24,985 bases of DNA from a virus. Within the stretch, counting starts at the first letter, position 1. Every line of letters begins with the position of its first letter. The stretch covers positions 1 to 24,985 of the IMG/VR virus record IMGVR_UViG_3300023112_001811. One strand, given 5' to 3'. Positions 5,763 through 22,782 of the stretch are shown piece after piece. The translations under genes and the position numbers were made by a program. The notes beneath the pieces were generated by a model. It was not told where the DNA came from and ran no database searches. It was given only the letters and a program-made list of their open reading frames with translations.

Positions 5763-6779
5763 ATGGCAGGATTAGGATTTGATTGTGGGACATACAACCT
5801 TGTTTGTTGCAGAAGAGACGAAAACAAAGACTTCTCGCATAAAAGAGAGGTAAATGCATTCATTGAAATGCCTTTAGAAAATAGATTTGTGTTCAACATG
5901 ATGAAGAACGCAGGCGTTCCTCTAATTGAAAGAACTGAGGCAGGGATTGCCTACGCTTTAGGAGAAGCCGCTGTAGATATCGCATACACAATGAACGACA
6001 TTGAACTAAAGCGACCAATGAAAGATGGCTGCTTGAATCCAAAAGAAAAGTATGCTCAACAAATCATGAGTATAATGATGCACAGTCTTCTTGACGAACT
6101 CGACGAAGATAAGCAGCAACTCTATTACAGTGTGCCCGCAAATGCTATTAATCAAGATACAGATGCAGATTACCACTCAAAAGTTTTAGAAGCTGTATTC
6201 AATGCGTTTGAAGATGAAACAGGAAAAGTTGTTGAAGCTCACCCAATTAATGAAGCATTGGCACTAGTATATGCTGAACTGAAAAAGACAGCATATACTG
6301 GAATTGGAATTTCGTTCGGCGCAGGCATGGTAAATCTTTGCTTTGCAATCTATGGTGCTCCAATTTTTGAATTCGCTCTCGTTAATAGTGGAGACTGGAT
6401 CGACAAAATGGCAGCTAGGGCAACAGGCGAAAGTCCTACTTATATCAATAAAGAAAAAATGAAAGTAGATTTAAATGAAGATTCAGACTTGCTAGTTCAA
6501 AGAGCTATCAAGGCACAGTATGAAATCATGATTCAAAAGACAGTTACAGGAATCAAGAACGGCATTGAAGAAGCGGGCAAAAGTGCTCGTGCTGATCATC
6601 CGATTGACATTGTAATTGCAGGTGGAACAAGTTCTCCGCCTGGATTTGATACTATGTTTAGTGATGTGCTTAAGTCATCAAATATAGGCATTGATATTGG
6701 GGAGGTTATTCGGCCTAGCGACCCCCTTTATTCAGTAGCACGAGGATGCCTTGTGGCAGCAGAAGCTGCACAAGGTTAG
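5763..6779 (+). CDS. Actin/Hsp70-superfamily ATPase (ParM/MreB-like fold)
   Basis: 338 residues. Phosphate-1 loop FDCGTYNLV at 6-14, a connect-1 region NEALALVYAEL at 163-173, phosphate-2 loop GISFGAGMVNLCF at 182-194, and adenosine motif IVIAGGTSSPPGF at 284-296 occur in the order and spacing of the actin-ATPase fold. Length fits bacterial and plasmid actin-like proteins (ParM about 320, MreB about 345) and is too short for DnaK with a substrate domain. The phosphate-1 loop has Cys and Tyr where MreB/ParM usually have a Gly/Thr-rich sequence. Such proteins form filaments that segregate plasmids or position phage DNA, but filament formation here is not shown. Spacing to neighbours suggests an operon 5505-8833. 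Confidence 0.8.
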   Translation: MAGLGFDCGTYNLVCCRRDENKDFSHKREVNAFIEMPLENRFVFNMMKNAGVPLIERTEAGIAYALGEAAVDIAYTMNDIELKRPMKDGCLNPKEKYAQQIMSIMMHSLLDELDEDKQQLYYSVPANAINQDTDADYHSKVLEAVFNAFEDETGKVVEAHPINEALALVYAELKKTAYTGIGISFGAGMVNLCFAIYGAPIFEFALVNSGDWIDKMAARATGESPTYINKEKMKVDLNEDSDLLVQRAIKAQYEIMIQKTVTGIKNGIEEAGKSARADHPIDIVIAGGTSSPPGFDTMFSDVLKSSNIGIDIGEVIRPSDPLYSVARGCLVAAEAAQG

Positions 6780-8835: not shown

Positions 8836-9786
8836 TTAATTTCCGTGTTCTGTCGTCAACCATCTGACTGTCCCGCTTTCTGATCTCATAGATACTGAGC
8901 TAGTGACTGGGCCATTGGATGTAAATCTAACGCCTTTCAAGAATTTCCCATCCGTAATCCCAGTGGCAGCAAACATGACCTCGCCTTCAGCGAGGTCATT
9001 TATATGCATCGAATCAGATGCATGTGTCAAAATTCCTTGAAAATCACCACATTTTTGTACTGACTCCTCGACTTCCCTACATTGCAGGAAACCTCCCATG
9101 CATTTCATCGCTGAGGCGGCTATCACAGCCTCTGGTGCTCCACCGATGCTCCAATACATATCAATCCCGCTATCGGGCACACAGGTGGCAATACAGGCCG
9201 TCACATCGCAGTCACTAATAAACTTGATCCGGCAACCTATTTTCCTCAGTTCTCCAACAAGTGGCTTTGTTCTTTCTCGGTCTAGAACACATACGGTAAC
9301 ATGCTCTGGCGATTTCCCCAAAGCAGCAGCAACCATCCCAACATTTGCACTTGCAGGGTTTTTGAGGTCAATCTGAGCCTTTGCTGCCACCTTGGGACCC
9401 ACGGCAATCTTGTCCATGTAAAAAACATCTGTTTTGTACAGTGATCCTACATTCCCCATAGCAAGAACGGCCATTGCTTCGTACCCACCTTTAGCCGTGG
9501 GGGTTGTTCCCTCAATCGGATCGACTGCAATATCATATTCCGCATCAGAGGGACAATCCCCATATGCGGCTCCGACCAGATCTCCTTCAAAAAGCCCGAA
9601 AGAACCATCTTTGATTCCTTCGCCTATAGCTATTTGCGCACGAAAATCTATATCGTTCAATCTTGAACGCATTGCATCGGTTGCAGCTTTGTCTGCTAAC
9701 TCTTTATTGCCTCGACCAACCCATTCGGCAGCAGATATTGCCGCTGCCTCTGTCGCCCTTATTATATCTAAGTGATGGTTTTTCAT
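8836..9786 (-). CDS. glpX: Fructose-1,6-bisphosphatase class II (GlpX type)
   Basis: 316 residues, normal GlpX length. It hydrolyses fructose-1,6-bisphosphate (in some lineages also sedoheptulose-1,7-bisphosphate), a step of gluconeogenesis and the Calvin cycle. Seen: D37 (KAATDAMR), E56 in IGEG, DPIEGTT with D89, E92, T94, TAKGG at 97-101, YMDKIAVGP, SDCDVTA, and GGAPEA with E219; these correspond to the metal- and substrate-binding residues known from E. coli GlpX. After IGEG the usual ERDEAPMLY-type loop is replaced by IKDGSFGLF. The start overlaps the upstream gene by ATGA (4 nt), showing translational coupling. The gene looks more GC-rich than its neighbours (53% in 9121-9180 by hand count, against 38% in 9901-9960), suggesting later acquisition. 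Likely an auxiliary metabolic gene. Confidence 0.94.
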   Translation of the reverse strand: MKNHHLDIIRATEAAAISAAEWVGRGNKELADKAATDAMRSRLNDIDFRAQIAIGEGIKDGSFGLFEGDLVGAAYGDCPSDAEYDIAVDPIEGTTPTAKGGYEAMAVLAMGNVGSLYKTDVFYMDKIAVGPKVAAKAQIDLKNPASANVGMVAAALGKSPEHVTVCVLDRERTKPLVGELRKIGCRIKFISDCDVTACIATCVPDSGIDMYWSIGGAPEAVIAASAMKCMGGFLQCREVEESVQKCGDFQGILTHASDSMHINDLAEGEVMFAATGITDGKFLKGVRFTSNGPVTSSVSMRSESGTVRWLTTEHGN

Positions 9787-15743: not shown

Positions 15744-16015
15744 TTTTTTATTTTTGAAAGATATACAGGTTCTTGCCAAAACATTGCCCAAAATATTGGA
15801 GTTTCATTGAAGTATTCATTTTCTATTTTTATTTTAAATTTTTTATCGTGAGGCAAGACCTTCCATCCATTGCCCTCTATGGCAATACGTTCAGCATACA
15901 TGTAGGGGTCTTTAAAATTATTGTGGTCGGCTACAATTTTTCTGGCTTCTCTAACATTCGAAGCAAGAACATAATCATATCCATTTTGCCAAACATTTAA
16001 CAACCAAACGTTCAT
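15737..16015 (-). CDS. Hypothetical protein (92 aa) coupled to metallopeptidase
   Basis: The frame opens at 16057, but ATG 16015 forms an ATGA overlap with the peptidase stop (TGA 16012-16014), so this start is chosen. MNVWLLNVWQNGYDYVLASNVREARKI suggests a small alpha/beta domain beginning with a strand and a helix; aromatic residues are frequent. No signal peptide, no motif recognised. Translational coupling suggests it acts with the peptidase, perhaps as a regulator or immunity-type partner; that is inference. Confidence 0.62.
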   Translation of the reverse strand: MNVWLLNVWQNGYDYVLASNVREARKIVADHNNFKDPYMYAERIAIEGNGWKVLPHDKKFKIKIENEYFNETPIFWAMFWQEPVYLSKIKNY

Positions 16016-17460
16016 TGCATGTATATTCTTTCTAATTTGCCTGATTTCACTTCCCACATACTATCCCAAGCTTTGTTTATTAAGTTTTCATCTTGTATTA
16101 CATTTAGACAAAATACAGCATCATCCATTGCCTCTGTTCCATTTGGAACTATTTCCTCAATTAAGTTTCCAGATTTATCAAATTCATACAAACCATCTTG
16201 AGCTAATTCAATCTCTACATCAAACAAAGGATTGTCGCCAGACAAACCGCTAACTACATAGTCGCTTAATTTTACAACGTGATTTGACTTGGAAATATAA
16301 GTAAGTCCATCTTTATGTTTGAAAACATTATCTTCTGGCTCGACTCCTTTTTTGAAATCTTTCCAATTTAGACCTTCATTATCTTTTGATAACATTTTAA
16401 CTTCTTGTGTAAGTATTTTTCTTCCTTCAAAGACCTTTCTCATTATTTTTCCATACGGACTACCAGCTTGGCGATCCACGTCCATCATTGATTTAGCTAT
16501 TGCTTGGTAGTATTTTGAGGTTCTAGGGGTTCTTGGAATTGCCTTAAATAAATAAAGACTCATTACATCTCTAGCTTCTTTTAAAGATTCAATATCTGAT
16601 TTGTTTTGTTTAAGATGGTTAAAAATTCTAACCATAATTTCATACCACACTCCTAAGAAAACTCTTCCAAACGAATGACACTCAGCGGCAAGCTTATTGT
16701 TTGGTGCTTGTTTTGGAAGGTTTCTAGGATCTTGATATTTAAATGTGTTATTTGCTTTTCTTAGGTATGCATGACTATATCCGCCTTTACCGCCTGTAAG
16801 GTTGAATATAGCACTGCCCATTTCTTCCGCCAACTTACTTATAACATTGTCTTTTCCCAGATCTCCATCTGTCTCTTTCAACGCATGTTCTAAAACTTCA
16901 TCTGATTCCATTAATGTGAGTATAGCAATTATGTCTGCGAAGGCTTCATGGAATGACCAAATTTCCAAAGCAGGTACGCTCCAAAAGTCCGGCCTCATTG
17001 CATCCAAAATGGCATGGCCAGCCTCATGTGCAATTATATCCACAGAGTCAGCGGTAAAAATCATTTTCTTAGTTTTAGAATCCTGATCGTAGAAAAAGCT
17101 CAAACTCTTGCGATCATACCAAGCATTGAAATCATTTCCCGCTCTTGGCTTGACAATCAAACTTTTAGTTGCTGCCCATTTGTCAAGAGGCTTTCTAAAG
17201 CTTTTAATATTTCTTTGTGAGAGTTCAACCGTTCTGCACATTGTTTCAACACAGCAAGATGCCTGATGGTCTTTTGATCCTTTTTTGAAATTTCCTTTTT
17301 TATACCCAAACACTTGAAAGTTTAGTTTTTTAGGTGGAATTTTTGGACTAATTAAAGAACCTAAACTTGGTGTAGTTGGATCATTAAACGGATACCAAAG
17401 TTGATTTGCAGATAAAGCACCAACCTCTCTAGAAAACATTGATTTAATATAATCAAACAT
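16012..17460 (-). CDS. Gluzincin zinc metallopeptidase (M4/M36-like)
   Basis: 482 residues with ribosome site AAGGAG before ATG 17460. HEAGH at 145-149 (in DIIAHEAGHAILDAM) gives two zinc ligands and the catalytic Glu; E172 in WSFHEAFADI, 22 residues on, is the expected third ligand of gluzincins (thermolysin/fungalysin type). A later ECHSFGRVFLGVWYEIM segment resembles the conserved His region after the active site in M4/M36. No signal peptide and no propeptide are evident, so it probably works in the host cytoplasm or inside the virion. A cysteine group (C69, C70, C75) precedes the core. The last 130 residues lack motifs and may bind substrate or the coupled 92-aa protein. Divergent from mscL. 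Confidence 0.85.
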   Translation of the reverse strand: MFDYIKSMFSREVGALSANQLWYPFNDPTTPSLGSLISPKIPPKKLNFQVFGYKKGNFKKGSKDHQASCCVETMCRTVELSQRNIKSFRKPLDKWAATKSLIVKPRAGNDFNAWYDRKSLSFFYDQDSKTKKMIFTADSVDIIAHEAGHAILDAMRPDFWSVPALEIWSFHEAFADIIAILTLMESDEVLEHALKETDGDLGKDNVISKLAEEMGSAIFNLTGGKGGYSHAYLRKANNTFKYQDPRNLPKQAPNNKLAAECHSFGRVFLGVWYEIMVRIFNHLKQNKSDIESLKEARDVMSLYLFKAIPRTPRTSKYYQAIAKSMMDVDRQAGSPYGKIMRKVFEGRKILTQEVKMLSKDNEGLNWKDFKKGVEPEDNVFKHKDGLTYISKSNHVVKLSDYVVSGLSGDNPLFDVEIELAQDGLYEFDKSGNLIEEIVPNGTEAMDDAVFCLNVIQDENLINKAWDSMWEVKSGKLERIYMQ

Positions 17461-17507
17461 TGCAGACTCCTTGGATAGATATTCATGAGTATGTATTTGG
17501 TAATAAT

Positions 17508-18002
17508 ATGAAAAAAGAATTTATAAATAGAGCTAACATAAAAAAAGCGAAAGATACCATCGAAGATGGTATCGAGCACGTCGTTGGAGAAGAAGAACTA
17601 AAGCAGTGGAAGAAGTTCGCATTCAAAGGCAGAATGATCGAAATGGCGATTGCCTTCATACTTGGAGCGGCATTTCAAAAGGTTGTAAGTTCTATTTCCC
17701 AAAATTTGATCATGCCAATGGTGAATTATGTCGTTGGGAAAACTGGCGAAGACTGGAGGGATTACAGTCTTTCCCCTCTTGAAGGAATGACTTTTGAACT
17801 AGGTCAATTCGCTGGCTCTTTCTTAGACTTTGTGCTAATTTCTATTATTTTGTATGTCGTTTACAGGAAAGTCATGTTTCCTTTATTGAAAGAAGATGTA
17901 AAAATAAGATGCATTCAAACCATATCTTGCCCAGAGTGTCAAGAAGAGATACACTACAAAGCAAGCAAGTGCCCATTTTGCACATCAACTTTGAAAGAAT
18001 AA
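17508..18002 (+). CDS. mscL: MscL-family mechanosensitive channel with C-terminal zinc ribbon
   Basis: The frame can start at TTG 17460, but ATG 17508 (MKKEFINRANIKK) gives a normal form (164 aa); no clear ribosome site is seen. An N-terminal helix (KQWKKFAFKGRMIEMAIAF) leads into TM1 with ILGAAFQKVVSSISQNLIMP (51-70), the hallmark of MscL, then a short periplasmic loop, TM2 (102-122) and a cytoplasmic tail. C141-P-E-C144 and C155-P-F-C158 form a zinc ribbon, known in some bacterial MscL-family proteins and absent in E. coli MscL. MscL opens a large pore when membrane tension rises, releasing osmolytes. In a phage it could protect the swelling infected cell, or vent it at lysis. First gene of an operon with the next two. 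Confidence 0.88.
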   Translation: MKKEFINRANIKKAKDTIEDGIEHVVGEEELKQWKKFAFKGRMIEMAIAFILGAAFQKVVSSISQNLIMPMVNYVVGKTGEDWRDYSLSPLEGMTFELGQFAGSFLDFVLISIILYVVYRKVMFPLLKEDVKIRCIQTISCPECQEEIHYKASKCPFCTSTLKE

Positions 18003-18003
18003 T

Positions 18004-18642
18004 ATGAACGAAAGAGAAAAGAGAATACAAGAACAAAGAACGATTGAAGCAACCAGAAAAAATCTAATGGGGTTGACTGGAAAAATTGGGACTGTGCTTC
18101 GAAACCTCGGTGAGCCATTGATAGCACAAAGTCAAGGCGGATCGCTTATGGATTCGTCATATCTCGATGATCCTTGGGCTTTGCAATCGGAAAATACTCC
18201 TGGAGAACTTAGAGAGGGACCCGCTGACTATGTTCAAAACCAAATTCCATATATGGAAATGAACCCACAAGGAACAGAAGAACCTATTGACGGTGCTTTC
18301 AGACAGAGCAGAGACTATGATATGCCTTTCAATTCTACATCTCAAATTGGATGGTACTTTGACGGCTTAAGCAGCGGTGTTCATATGGAGATCAAATACG
18401 ATGAACACAGCAAAAGCTTAACGTTGAACTGGAAGGGATATCTGGCATATAAGGAGTCAGCAGGTGAGTTGGCTGCATATTCTCCCAATGAAGAATGGGA
18501 AAATAAAATTAATTATTTGTACCAAATCGCTGCAACAAAAGAAAGATCCGTCAAAAAAGAAAGAAAAGAAGAAGAAATAAAAGAAGTTCAGAAAATGAAA
18601 ACAAGCTGGATTCAAAAAATGAGAGAAAGGTGGGGACTGTGA
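18004..18642 (+). CDS. Hypothetical protein (212 aa) in mscL operon
   Basis: Starts one base after the mscL stop, so it is coupled to it. Residues 1-40 are helical and charged, 45-115 look disordered (Gly, Pro, Asn, Gln, Met), 115-165 form a beta-rich folded segment (SQIGWYFDGLSSGVHMEI, then LTLNWKGYLAY), and the C-terminal 45 residues form a Lys/Glu coiled-coil-like helix ending KMRERWGL. No membrane segment, no known family. A soluble partner of the channel or a virion component are both possible. Confidence 0.65.
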   Translation: MNEREKRIQEQRTIEATRKNLMGLTGKIGTVLRNLGEPLIAQSQGGSLMDSSYLDDPWALQSENTPGELREGPADYVQNQIPYMEMNPQGTEEPIDGAFRQSRDYDMPFNSTSQIGWYFDGLSSGVHMEIKYDEHSKSLTLNWKGYLAYKESAGELAAYSPNEEWENKINYLYQIAATKERSVKKERKEEEIKEVQKMKTSWIQKMRERWGL

Positions 18643-19097
18643 CAAATTGGTCAAATGAATATTTGCTCTTAAAAGAATTGATGAACCGTGGGATTGCGAT
18701 ATGGAAGGACCATAGCAGATGGATAATAACAAAAACACCGTCTCCTCACGATACAAGAAATTCATTTCCAAATGCGAAGCCTCCACATGTGTATCAATTG
18801 CAGTTTAATTCTTTCAATGATGCAATTGAATTCGCTAAAGAATTTATTGAATGGGAAACACCTGAAGAAAAAAACCAATGTCCTCCAAAGCAAAGATGGC
18901 GGGTCTCAGTGATGTATGATCAAGGATTAGGACCAGAATACAAAAACTTATTTGTCGAAGCTCGAACGCATGAAGAGGCCGATGCAATTGGGAGAAAAAG
19001 TGCAGAGGCTTTGCTTGAAAAATTAAGGATCGATCCAGAAAAGATAGTACAAGTATCTTGCAGACCTGTTAGAGATGACAGCAATCCTCTTCTATAG
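18639..19097 (+). CDS. Hypothetical protein (152 aa) in mscL operon
   Basis: GTG at 18639 overlaps the preceding TGA (GTGA), with AGGTGGGG upstream; an earlier in-frame GTG at 18630 is less likely. Alpha/beta pattern without signal or membrane segments: a helical start (SNEYLLLKELMNRGIAIW), an extended middle and RWRVSVMYDQGLGPEYK followed by a helix (ARTHEEADAIGRKSAEALLEKL). The last part resembles the small sensor-like domains of phage proteins that modify host enzymes, but no family can be named. A terminator follows after 15 nt. Confidence 0.65.
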   Translation: MTNWSNEYLLLKELMNRGIAIWKDHSRWIITKTPSPHDTRNSFPNAKPPHVYQLQFNSFNDAIEFAKEFIEWETPEEKNQCPPKQRWRVSVMYDQGLGPEYKNLFVEARTHEEADAIGRKSAEALLEKLRIDPEKIVQVSCRPVRDDSNPLL

Positions 19098-19111: not shown

Positions 19112-19150
19112 AAGCCTATAGACTTCTCAAAGTCTATAGGCTTGTTTAAT
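19112..19150 (+). terminator. Rho-independent terminator ending the mscL operon
   Basis: AAGCCTATAGACTT (19112-19125) pairs perfectly with AAGTCTATAGGCTT (19130-19143), loop CTCA, followed by GTTTAATTCTTTT. On the minus strand the hairpin is followed by CTTTTCTTTT, so it could also stop leftward transcription. It lies inside a questionable minus-strand ORF (19069-19314). Confidence 0.82.
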
Positions 19151-21204: not shown

Positions 21205-21666
21205 TCAGTTACCTGATCGGGCTTTAGTTTCGCATGTTTTTTTAGGGATCATTTTCTGAACTTCTCTAGCAGTTTTCCAAGAATCTAAAAGCTGCTCTTC
21301 GTAGAAAAGATGCGTGTATGCTGTAGCGGCATTATCATAGTCTTCAGTTGACTTGAGACGCTTCGCATAATTATCTGCGACTTCATCTTCCATCTCTACA
21401 ATTGCTTTGACAATCGAAGTGGGGCAGGTTAAGCCAGAAGGGTACGGGTTTGTTCTAACATCTGGGGTTCCGCCTAGATGAACTATAAGCTCTGAAAATT
21501 CAGTAACATGCTTTAGTTCATCAGCAGCCTGAGTCTCACAAAACTCTCGAAGCTCTTCTCTATGTAACCCTGTTAACTGAACAGCATATTGCGTGTACGC
21601 TGACAGATGTTTTCTTTCATTCTTCAAGTCTTCTTGTAAGAATTCAATTAGTTGTTCATTTTCCAT
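21205..21666 (-). CDS. Ferritin-like (bacterioferritin/rubrerythrin-type) protein
   Basis: 153 residues, predicted four-helix bundle as in ferritins. E17 in helix A, E50-x2-H53 (AADELKHVTEF) in helix B, E91/E94 (VEMEDEVADNY) in helix C and E123/E124 (YEEQLLDSW) in helix D give a diiron-type pattern. The second E-x2-H is degenerate: Leu127 takes the place of His, with Asp128 next to it. Ribosome site AAGGGA. It may store or detoxify iron or protect DNA against peroxide during infection. Three nt separate it from the M28 stop, so it ends an operon with the GT8 and M28 genes. Confidence 0.8.
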   Translation of the reverse strand: MENEQLIEFLQEDLKNERKHLSAYTQYAVQLTGLHREELREFCETQAADELKHVTEFSELIVHLGGTPDVRTNPYPSGLTCPTSIVKAIVEMEDEVADNYAKRLKSTEDYDNAATAYTHLFYEEQLLDSWKTAREVQKMIPKKTCETKARSGN

Positions 21667-21669
21667 TTA

Positions 21670-22782
21670 TTATTCCCTTTCAAATTTAACTTCAGGATTT
21701 CCGTGGTCATGTTTATAATTCATAGTTTTAAAGTTTGCAATATTGAATTTTGGCTTATTTTCGATATTTGCAAGTTCCCAAACTAATTCCAACGTATACT
21801 TTGAAACCTGCTTCATTCCGGCATAATTCAATTTATCGGGAGTATCAGAAGGAGTGTGATAATGTTTATGGCCTCCTGTGTGCAAAAACGCCACAGGAAT
21901 TTTATTGTTATAGAATGGAGCATGATCGCTTCCGCCTCCTCCACGACTTGTGATTTTATTTGCAAAAATATATTTTTCATTTAATTTTTTAATTATATTT
22001 TTAACGTCTATAGAACTTTCTCCATCGCCCCATCCTGTGAAATATACACCTTTATCTAAGTATCCCACCATATCTAAGTTAACCATCGCAACATGACTTC
22101 TTATGTTTGGATTTTCTCTAGGAAAAGTTGGATTAGCACAGTAATATCGACTTCCAATTAATCCCATTTCTTCGCCAGAGTAGTGCTGTATCACAATAGT
22201 TCTCTTAGGTTTTTCCATCTTTGAAAGGGCTTCTGCAATTTCCATGATTACAGCAGTTCCGCTCGCATTGTCATCTGCGCCTGGATGAATTGCCATCGTC
22301 CTTGATCTGGACATTGAAGGACCGTATCCAATGTGATCCATGTGAGCACCTAGCACAACAATTTCATTGGGATTTTCGCCTTCGATCCAAGCAAATATAT
22401 TTTGTGTATAATTGTCACCCGTTTCATTGTTAGGACCTGGATTCAAGCGTCTAATGTCAAATCTTTGATATTCAGTCTTTAAACCATTACTTTCATGATA
22501 TTGTTTTATCCATTCGGCTGCGGCGACGTTTCCAGCCTTGCCAGACATACGTCCTTCCCACTTATCGTCTGCAAGTTTGAACACATACTCTTCGCATTCT
22601 TCTTCTGTGATGGTCTCTAGAGCTTCGGTCAAAGTTAAGTCTGGATCGGGATCAATGGGAACTATAGGGCCGATTGGAACTATAGGGTCAACGGGCTTGT
22701 TTGTAATGAAATTATTTTTCAAAACAACAACGCTTGAAATCATTACAATCAAGCAAAAAATTATATATTTTTTATTCATCAT
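21670..22782 (-). CDS. Exported, membrane-anchored M28 zinc peptidase
   Basis: 370 residues. An N-terminal hydrophobic segment (6-21) with KK before it acts as a signal anchor, followed by a Pro-rich linker of repeating VPI/DPI units (30-48). The catalytic domain is complete: H147 and D149 in GAHMDHIG, D170/D171 in GADDNASG, E204/E205 in SGEEMG, D237 in VNLDMVG, and H309 in HYHTPSDTP, matching the ligands and catalytic residues of M28 aminopeptidases (cocatalytic two-zinc centre). It would cleave peptides or N-terminal residues in the periplasm or at the cell surface; the substrate is unknown. ATG lies 2 nt after the GT8 stop, so it is translated from the same mRNA. Confidence 0.92.
   Translation of the reverse strand: MMNKKYIIFCLIVMISSVVVLKNNFITNKPVDPIVPIGPIVPIDPDPDLTLTEALETITEEECEEYVFKLADDKWEGRMSGKAGNVAAAEWIKQYHESNGLKTEYQRFDIRRLNPGPNNETGDNYTQNIFAWIEGENPNEIVVLGAHMDHIGYGPSMSRSRTMAIHPGADDNASGTAVIMEIAEALSKMEKPKRTIVIQHYSGEEMGLIGSRYYCANPTFPRENPNIRSHVAMVNLDMVGYLDKGVYFTGWGDGESSIDVKNIIKKLNEKYIFANKITSRGGGGSDHAPFYNNKIPVAFLHTGGHKHYHTPSDTPDKLNYAGMKQVSKYTLELVWELANIENKPKFNIANFKTMNYKHDHGNPEVKFERE

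Follow-up and report, generated by a model that had tools for sequence, protein, structure and literature searches.

A phage lineage of predicted MscL channels beside a conserved gene pair of T4-type huge phages

The genome of Lacticaseibacillus phage R23.1 encodes an MscL, whose function its authors leave open in the text available (PMC10219966). On estuarine viral contigs, mainly Caudoviricetes, MscL genes rise with salinity and are proposed, in the accessible part of that study, to aid the host under osmotic stress (PMC13288924). Additionally, a protein resembling a mechanosensitive channel is described for phage PANV1 (PMC9239159), and for Oenococcus prophages the available text mentions MscL solely as a gene close to an integration site (PMC8074189). 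Searches of the open-access literature gave, among the matches listed, no study of an MscL lineage in huge phages and, for huge phages combined with mechanosensitive, no title on phage channels; MscL with a zinc ribbon and jumbo phage with a mechanosensitive channel gave no match in the same literature.

The DNA analysed here, referred to as the window, is the whole stretch of 24,985 nucleotides. It contains an mscL gene that is followed on the same strand by two further genes and preceded by a divergent one. The features of the locus are as follows.

16012..17460, minus strand: putative divergent metallopeptidase-like gene (HExxH motif in the alignment; weak match to Pfam M4)
17461..17507, no strand: divergent intergenic stretch of 47 bp between the metallopeptidase-like gene and mscL (from the coordinates)
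17508..18002, plus strand: mscL, predicted phage MscL channel of 164 aa (Pfam and PDB matches, model, 20-row alignment)
17928..17984, plus strand: coding part for the four-cysteine ribbon at the C-terminus (CPEC...CPFC), limits approximate (regular expression)
18004..18642, plus strand: gene 2, 212 aa, conserved phage gene (relatives in 49/49 distinct loci; model pLDDT 84)
18630..19097, plus strand: gene 3, 155 aa (of the loci searched, L139 alone has a clear relative; others weak)
19112..19143, no strand: hairpin separating convergent genes, resembling a terminator on either strand (14-pair stem, 4-base loop)

The ATG frame at 17508-18002 on the plus strand is translated to 164 aa that include ILGAAFQKVVSS and CPECQEEIHYKASKCPFC, and the MscL core and four-cysteine ribbon that an earlier note on this DNA had claimed are both present as it wrote them. 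The Pfam family MscL (PF01741) matches residues 31-129 with an E-value of 3.4e-21 and 76.3 bits (cut-off 27.4). A search of PDB sequences matched eight distinct MscL sequences, including 3hzq (4e-14, the best), 28oa (8e-10), and 4y7k (2e-9), and the PHROGs match is to phrog_25692 (8.8e-17), a phage family without a name. As sequence matches, those in Pfam, PDB and PHROGs are well beyond chance. The structure was modelled as a monomer with AlphaFold2 (25 aligned sequences, mean pLDDT 81.5, pTM 0.44), and the model consists of an N-terminal helix (8-26), S1 (28-38), TM1 (41-77), a short loop with two strands, TM2 (98-127), and a ribbon likewise of two strands, such that the S1 helix, the two TM helices and the loop between them that characterise the family fold are all found in it. 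The top Foldseek matches of the model are the closed archaeal MscL 4y7k (2.5e-4) and the MscL 2oar (0.022), and the best matches to MscL chains have a TM-score of 0.41 by query length. The structure 6RLD we take to be an MscS-type channel. About 30 extra N-terminal residues, on which the earlier note was silent, precede the MscL core and are modelled as a helix. Judged by the matches and the predicted fold, the window gene encodes a credible MscL.

The neighbouring genes gave weaker matches. The metallopeptidase-like gene matches Pfam M4 at 0.058, which is under the cut-off, and a profile of 3 rows found nothing in the PDB at 0.01. For gene 2, no Pfam family matches more than 2 of the 42 members (best E 0.0015, in one member), the best E against PDB sequences is 0.16, and the best matches of the model are a Foldseek E of 0.65 and a VIA Z of 4.4 against PDB folds and an E of 0.038 against BFVD; weak or absent matches do not show that the fold is novel. 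The gap between mscL and gene 2 is 1 bp, and genes 2 and 3 overlap by 13 bp. The hairpin at 19112-19143, counted on both strands, is among 3 terminator-like sites, versus 1.6 expected in shuffles, and the count is therefore unremarkable, though the 14-pair stem is long. No sigma-70-like site was found in the 47-bp intergenic stretch upstream of mscL. A TATAAATA box, which we take to resemble the T4 late promoter, is located upstream of the portal gene (L011, upstream of 17573), and none is located upstream of mscL. The motif CTATATA occurs 7 times in the window versus 2.7 expected, and 4 of 100 shuffles reach 7.

The genes in the window include a terminase, a primase, and an exonuclease. Two longer virus contigs match it at 99.97% identity: a 25.9-kb contig contains the entire window, and a 44.6-kb contig covers bases 227-24985 and adds a portal, a head protease, and a T4-type major head protein. 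Among 50,697 phage records, the nearest relative of the major head protein is in LR756511.1 (595,163 bases) with 77% identity, and the next is at 34%. We take LR756511.1 to come from a published huge-phage survey. By its gene content the contig is that of a genuine T4-type tailed phage; the phage context that had been claimed for it is thus borne out, and the objection that the contig is bacterial fails on the terminase in the window and the T4-type head genes on the longer contig. Contigs of this phage extend to 44.6 kb at most, and relatives reach 595 kb (without MscL), 527 kb (MscL at the locus), and 533 kb (MscL elsewhere).

The search for MscL homologues in viral genomes that the earlier note had called for was carried out and resulted in 23 phage MscLs, 20 at the locus and 3 elsewhere, which form one clade (support 100/100) against 91 other rows. 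The clade also holds when the ribbon is removed (100/99). The first comparison set consisted of 94 rows, 14 of them from phage or virus records, from which the short rows L093, L124, and L131 were dropped. A second set was made from the best 30 loci in 244 genomes of Cyanobacteriota, the phylum to which Goleter apudmare belongs. In a tree of these loci and 52 rows out of the 90 left in the first set, the phage clade joined 15 MscLs that carry a W-R motif in the loop (99/97). In an enlarged tree, with 18 first-set rows, 20/20 Chloroflexota loci, 14/20 Verrucomicrobiota loci, and 30/30 cyanobacterial-phylum loci, the phage clade was still sister to the W-R MscLs (100/97), and the W-R group itself was weak (77/34). 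The motif is found in all 23 phage MscLs and in 15 of the best 30 cyanobacterial-phylum loci; it is absent from the best 20 Chloroflexota and the best 20 Verrucomicrobiota loci and occurs in one of the 94 first-set rows, the cyanobacterium L080. On these trees the phage MscL is a line of descent apart from the bacterial MscLs compared here, and mscL was probably acquired once by an ancestor of the phage group from an MscL type of the cyanobacterial phylum. Closer relatives may exist beyond the phyla compared, as Pseudomonadota and Archaea lie outside the sampling by phylum.

The 14 other virus-labelled MscLs, including that of phage R23.1, fall among bacteria in the tree, and therefore either phages have picked up MscL repeatedly or these records contain host DNA. 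Such cases would lend some plausibility to the window gene being a passenger as well, whether a recent capture of a bacterial mscL or bacterial DNA in a viral bin, but we consider this highly improbable, since the phage copies form one clade, 17 of the 49 distinct loci have the gene at the same site, flanked by phage genes, it is under purifying selection (see below), and T4-type head genes are on the same contig.

Several other genes of these contigs were noticed. Window positions 5763-6779 encode an actin-like protein assigned to the Volactin family (PF25216, 8e-67), which has a 64% identical relative in LR756511.1. A class II fructose-1,6-bisphosphatase, GlpX (PF03320, 4e-106), is encoded at 8836-9786 and has relatives in 5 of the 50,697 phage records, several of which look like host DNA. 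The window GlpX is 40-42% identical (182-193 bits) to those of five cyanobacterial-phylum genomes and 41-43% identical (212-222 bits) to those of one Paenibacillus, one Chloroflexota, and one Verrucomicrobiota genome (8/10 genomes matched). MscL hints at a host in the cyanobacterial phylum, but GlpX is no closer to that phylum than to the other genomes. A long open frame at 2-1750 is composed of short near-repeats (PAPSFSPIEFG, then DIPTTISI-like units) and has no Pfam or PHROGs match. A ferritin-like gene at 21205-21666 (PF00210, 3e-15) adjoins an M28 peptidase gene at 21670-22782 (PF04389, 3e-43), and both have relatives beside the MscL locus of L016. In LR756511.1 (L053), the portal-like gene at 26015-28588 holds an intein-like stretch that starts with CVAGDTLIS and ends with VMHNC (translation read by eye).

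The distribution of mscL at this site was surveyed with its neighbours. Virus scans with the metallopeptidase-like protein gave 57 loci and with gene 2 gave 8 loci; together with LR756511.1 and L016 these make 67 locus entries, overlapping ones counted, which collapse into 49 distinct loci when clustered at 95% protein identity. Both the metallopeptidase-like gene and gene 2 are present in 67/67 entries and hence in 49/49 distinct loci. At 17 of these, MscL is encoded between the two genes; on the contigs searched for the others, it is encoded at another place in 4 and was not detected in 28. Where gene 2 has no MscL beside it (32 loci, with 42 locus entries in their clusters), one whole contig per locus was searched (two for L185), which makes 32 contigs for 31 loci plus LR756511.1, and because most contigs are fragments the absence in 28 loci is provisional. 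In LR756511.1 the two genes are back to back with no gene between, and no MscL was found in the 595 kb, all of which was searched. These results suggest that related phages may do without MscL. When a tree is built from the metallopeptidase-like protein, all 17 MscL loci fall within one 20-row group (93/84, not starred), and three changes suffice to account for the presence of MscL, versus about 14 in shuffles. One gain at the locus followed by two losses would fit this pattern, but a tree of this kind does not distinguish gains from losses. Among 19 loci from a second scan of viral sequences, three are on new contigs (L213, on a 527-kb contig, L214, and L218). L213 and L218 have mscL with both neighbour genes, and L214 has the gene 2 neighbour only, as its stretch starts just before mscL; L218 is near L173 (93% in MscL).

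The earlier note had proposed that genes 2 and 3 are partners of the channel and regulate it through the ribbon. The distance from the mscL stop to the gene 2 start is within 34 bp in 9 of the 12 relatives measured (4 of 16, whose start of gene 2 remained unplaced, were excluded) and is 1 bp in the window, and this tight spacing is the one point favouring a link. It is set against 949 bp between the two genes in L139 and the 28 of 49 loci, including a whole 595-kb genome, in which gene 2 is present and MscL, as searched, is not; because all 49 loci have gene 2, it appears independent of MscL. In L174 and L197 the mscL frame continues past the ribbon with a 176-bp overlap into gene 2 in another frame. 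A clear relative of gene 3 occurs in L139 (2e-27), the only locus where one is found together with mscL. Weak matches (5e-7 to 0.002) right after gene 2 were found in L164, L177, L182, L184, and L185/L186, all of them loci without MscL next to gene 2, and therefore genes 2 and 3 look like a phage block in which mscL is optional. The order of mscL, gene 2, gene 3, and hairpin in the window, with its close spacing, is as had been noticed, but the group is not conserved as a unit in relatives (gene 2 at 49/49 loci, mscL at the locus in 17/49). Gene 2 as an MscL partner finds no support in this distribution, and regulation of the channel by genes 2 and 3, which is further weakened by the ribbon of bacterial MscLs and by three phage MscLs that lack it, is quite unlikely.

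The ribbon cysteines are residues 141, 144, 155, and 158. By regular expression, two CxxC pairs with the usual zinc-ribbon spacing are found in 20 of the 23 phage MscLs, which marks these as having a putative zinc ribbon; all 20 MscLs at the gene 2 locus carry it, and the 3 copies elsewhere do not. The ribbon is in the place of the C-terminal helical bundle of the MscL family, which is absent in the window protein. According to the text available, the bundle of one tested MscL is dispensable for the pentamer and for mechanosensitivity, and it was therefore not counted as defining MscL (PMC6167328). The N-terminal helix of MscL matters for gating, as far as the accessible text describes (PMC4917966), and the extra helix of the phage protein could therefore matter too. 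Ribbons are also carried by bacterial MscLs, including 4 of the 15 W-R sister sequences of the cyanobacterial phylum, and thus channel and ribbon may have arrived together. In the pattern-picked set of bacterial MscLs (at least 595 candidates, 409 confirmed, 80 kept) the ribbon is found in 74 of 80, a figure that is biased upward because the set was picked by pattern from a ribbon-rich alignment. It is found in 20/20 of the best Chloroflexota MscL loci versus 1/20 of the best Verrucomicrobiota loci. Since bacterial MscLs have a ribbon and three phage MscLs do not, this putative domain need not be a phage invention for partners encoded by genes 2 and 3.

It could be that the MscL body is mainly a membrane anchor or scaffold that presents the ribbon and the N-terminal helix to a host or phage protein, with conduction being secondary. 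The conservation of the ribbon in 20/20 locus copies and the extra N-terminal helix are in keeping with this, and the modelled ribbon is similar to small zinc-finger chains, with E above 1. However, the TM1 glycine and the gate are conserved, three phage copies have no ribbon, and the same ribbon is found on bacterial channels, and we regard an anchoring role as improbable.

Pore positions were compared, in E. coli numbering, for the window protein and 19 further MscLs at the locus (n=20), plus the 3 copies elsewhere. The position of G26, the TM1 glycine, is G in 20/20 locus copies and A in the 3 copies elsewhere. The hydrophobic gate is kept in 20/20, with M/L/I/V at 19, A/G at 22, and F/V/I at 23. 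The V23 position is the bulkier F in 13/20, the window included, and the archaeal 4y7k also has the A22-F23 pair. At position 30 all 20 copies have a polar residue (N, Q, or K), and positions 14, 15, and 18 are variable. The loss of pore residues in a proper alignment, which the earlier note had named as a danger to its reading, is not seen at the glycine or the gate, though gate-adjacent positions have changed, and the conducting core at the locus looks intact by residue identity. As position 30 is polar and 14, 15, and 18 are altered, gating may differ from that of E. coli MscL. Selection was measured in seven mscL pairs, which are not independent (L173 was used twice): two are unsaturated, with dN/dS of 0.15 and 0.35, one shows no difference in amino acids, and in the remaining four, where synonymous sites are saturated, pN is 0.13-0.26. 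These estimates indicate that phage mscL is under purifying selection. The MscLs of L202, L203, L204, and L205, which are off the gene 2 locus, are ribbonless, carry A where E. coli has G26, and may represent a second functional type.

Gain-of-function mutations of E. coli MscL cluster at such TM1 positions. The polar residue at 30 in 20/20 copies and the rewritten positions 14, 15, and 18 would suit a late permeabiliser, that is, a channel retuned to open easily that dissipates ion gradients, releases solutes or triggers lysis in the manner of a mechanosensitive pinholin. No paper on the gain-of-function residues was found in the open-access literature searched. The F at the V23 position, which the archaeal 4y7k shares, argues against easy opening, and no lysis gene was recognised beside mscL among the window genes scanned (Pfam and PHROGs, not every gene). 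This function seems to us doubtful. With similar reserve we consider that huge phages might have evolved an MscL gating class of their own, set to an infection-specific tension, that has timed the host burst as a mechanosensitive lysis timer since the ancestor of the clade; this reading is built on the polar 30, the altered 14, 15, and 18, A/G at 22, F/V/I at 23, the W-R loop, and the ribbon.

Building on gene identity, predicted fold, the phage contig, common ancestry, purifying selection, and locus history, the reading we favour over the others, at about even odds, is that the protein is a tension-gated valve made during infection. The gene would have been acquired a single time, as set out above, and in one clade it sits within an old divergent phage gene pair. 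The MscL would form a pentamer in the inner membrane of the host, and as membrane tension rises the channel would open so that ions and small solutes leave. A swelling or osmotically stressed host would thereby be kept from bursting early, and a very large phage could complete its replication and assembly; the pentamer, gating, timing, and protective role are all conjectural. Because hosts usually carry an MscL themselves, the phage copy may serve another purpose.

A phage-carried MscL is already published, as the available texts of two papers make clear (PMC10219966, PMC13288924); what is new here is the single phage clade, its cyanobacterial-phylum sister, the selection, and the pore changes. 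Phage MscL has so far been mentioned in lists. With a selected, lineage-specific clade at a fixed huge-phage site, the question of why a virus needs a pressure valve is now directly testable, and about 20 natural variants altered at gating positions should be useful to the MscL field.

In comparison with known systems, the phage protein has S1, TM1 with the G26 position, the loop, and TM2 in common with bacterial and archaeal MscL (PF01741; 28oa, 3hzq, 4y7k, 2oar), and it differs in its extra N-terminal helix and in a ribbon that replaces the C-terminal bundle, the phage copies having N/Q/K at 30 and an invariant W-R in the loop. The MscL of phage R23.1 (L009) comes from a 14.5-kb genome (PMC10219966); in the tree it groups with bacteria and not with this clade, and it has no ribbon. 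The estuarine viral MscLs are given, in the accessible text, as abundances along salinity without analysis of loci or residues (PMC13288924). The W-R MscLs of the cyanobacterial phylum have the same loop motif, the sister position at 100/97, and a ribbon in 4 of 15. Unlike the phage proteins, they retain G14, N15, and mostly D18 and G30, have V at 23, and show no phage-type N-terminal extension.
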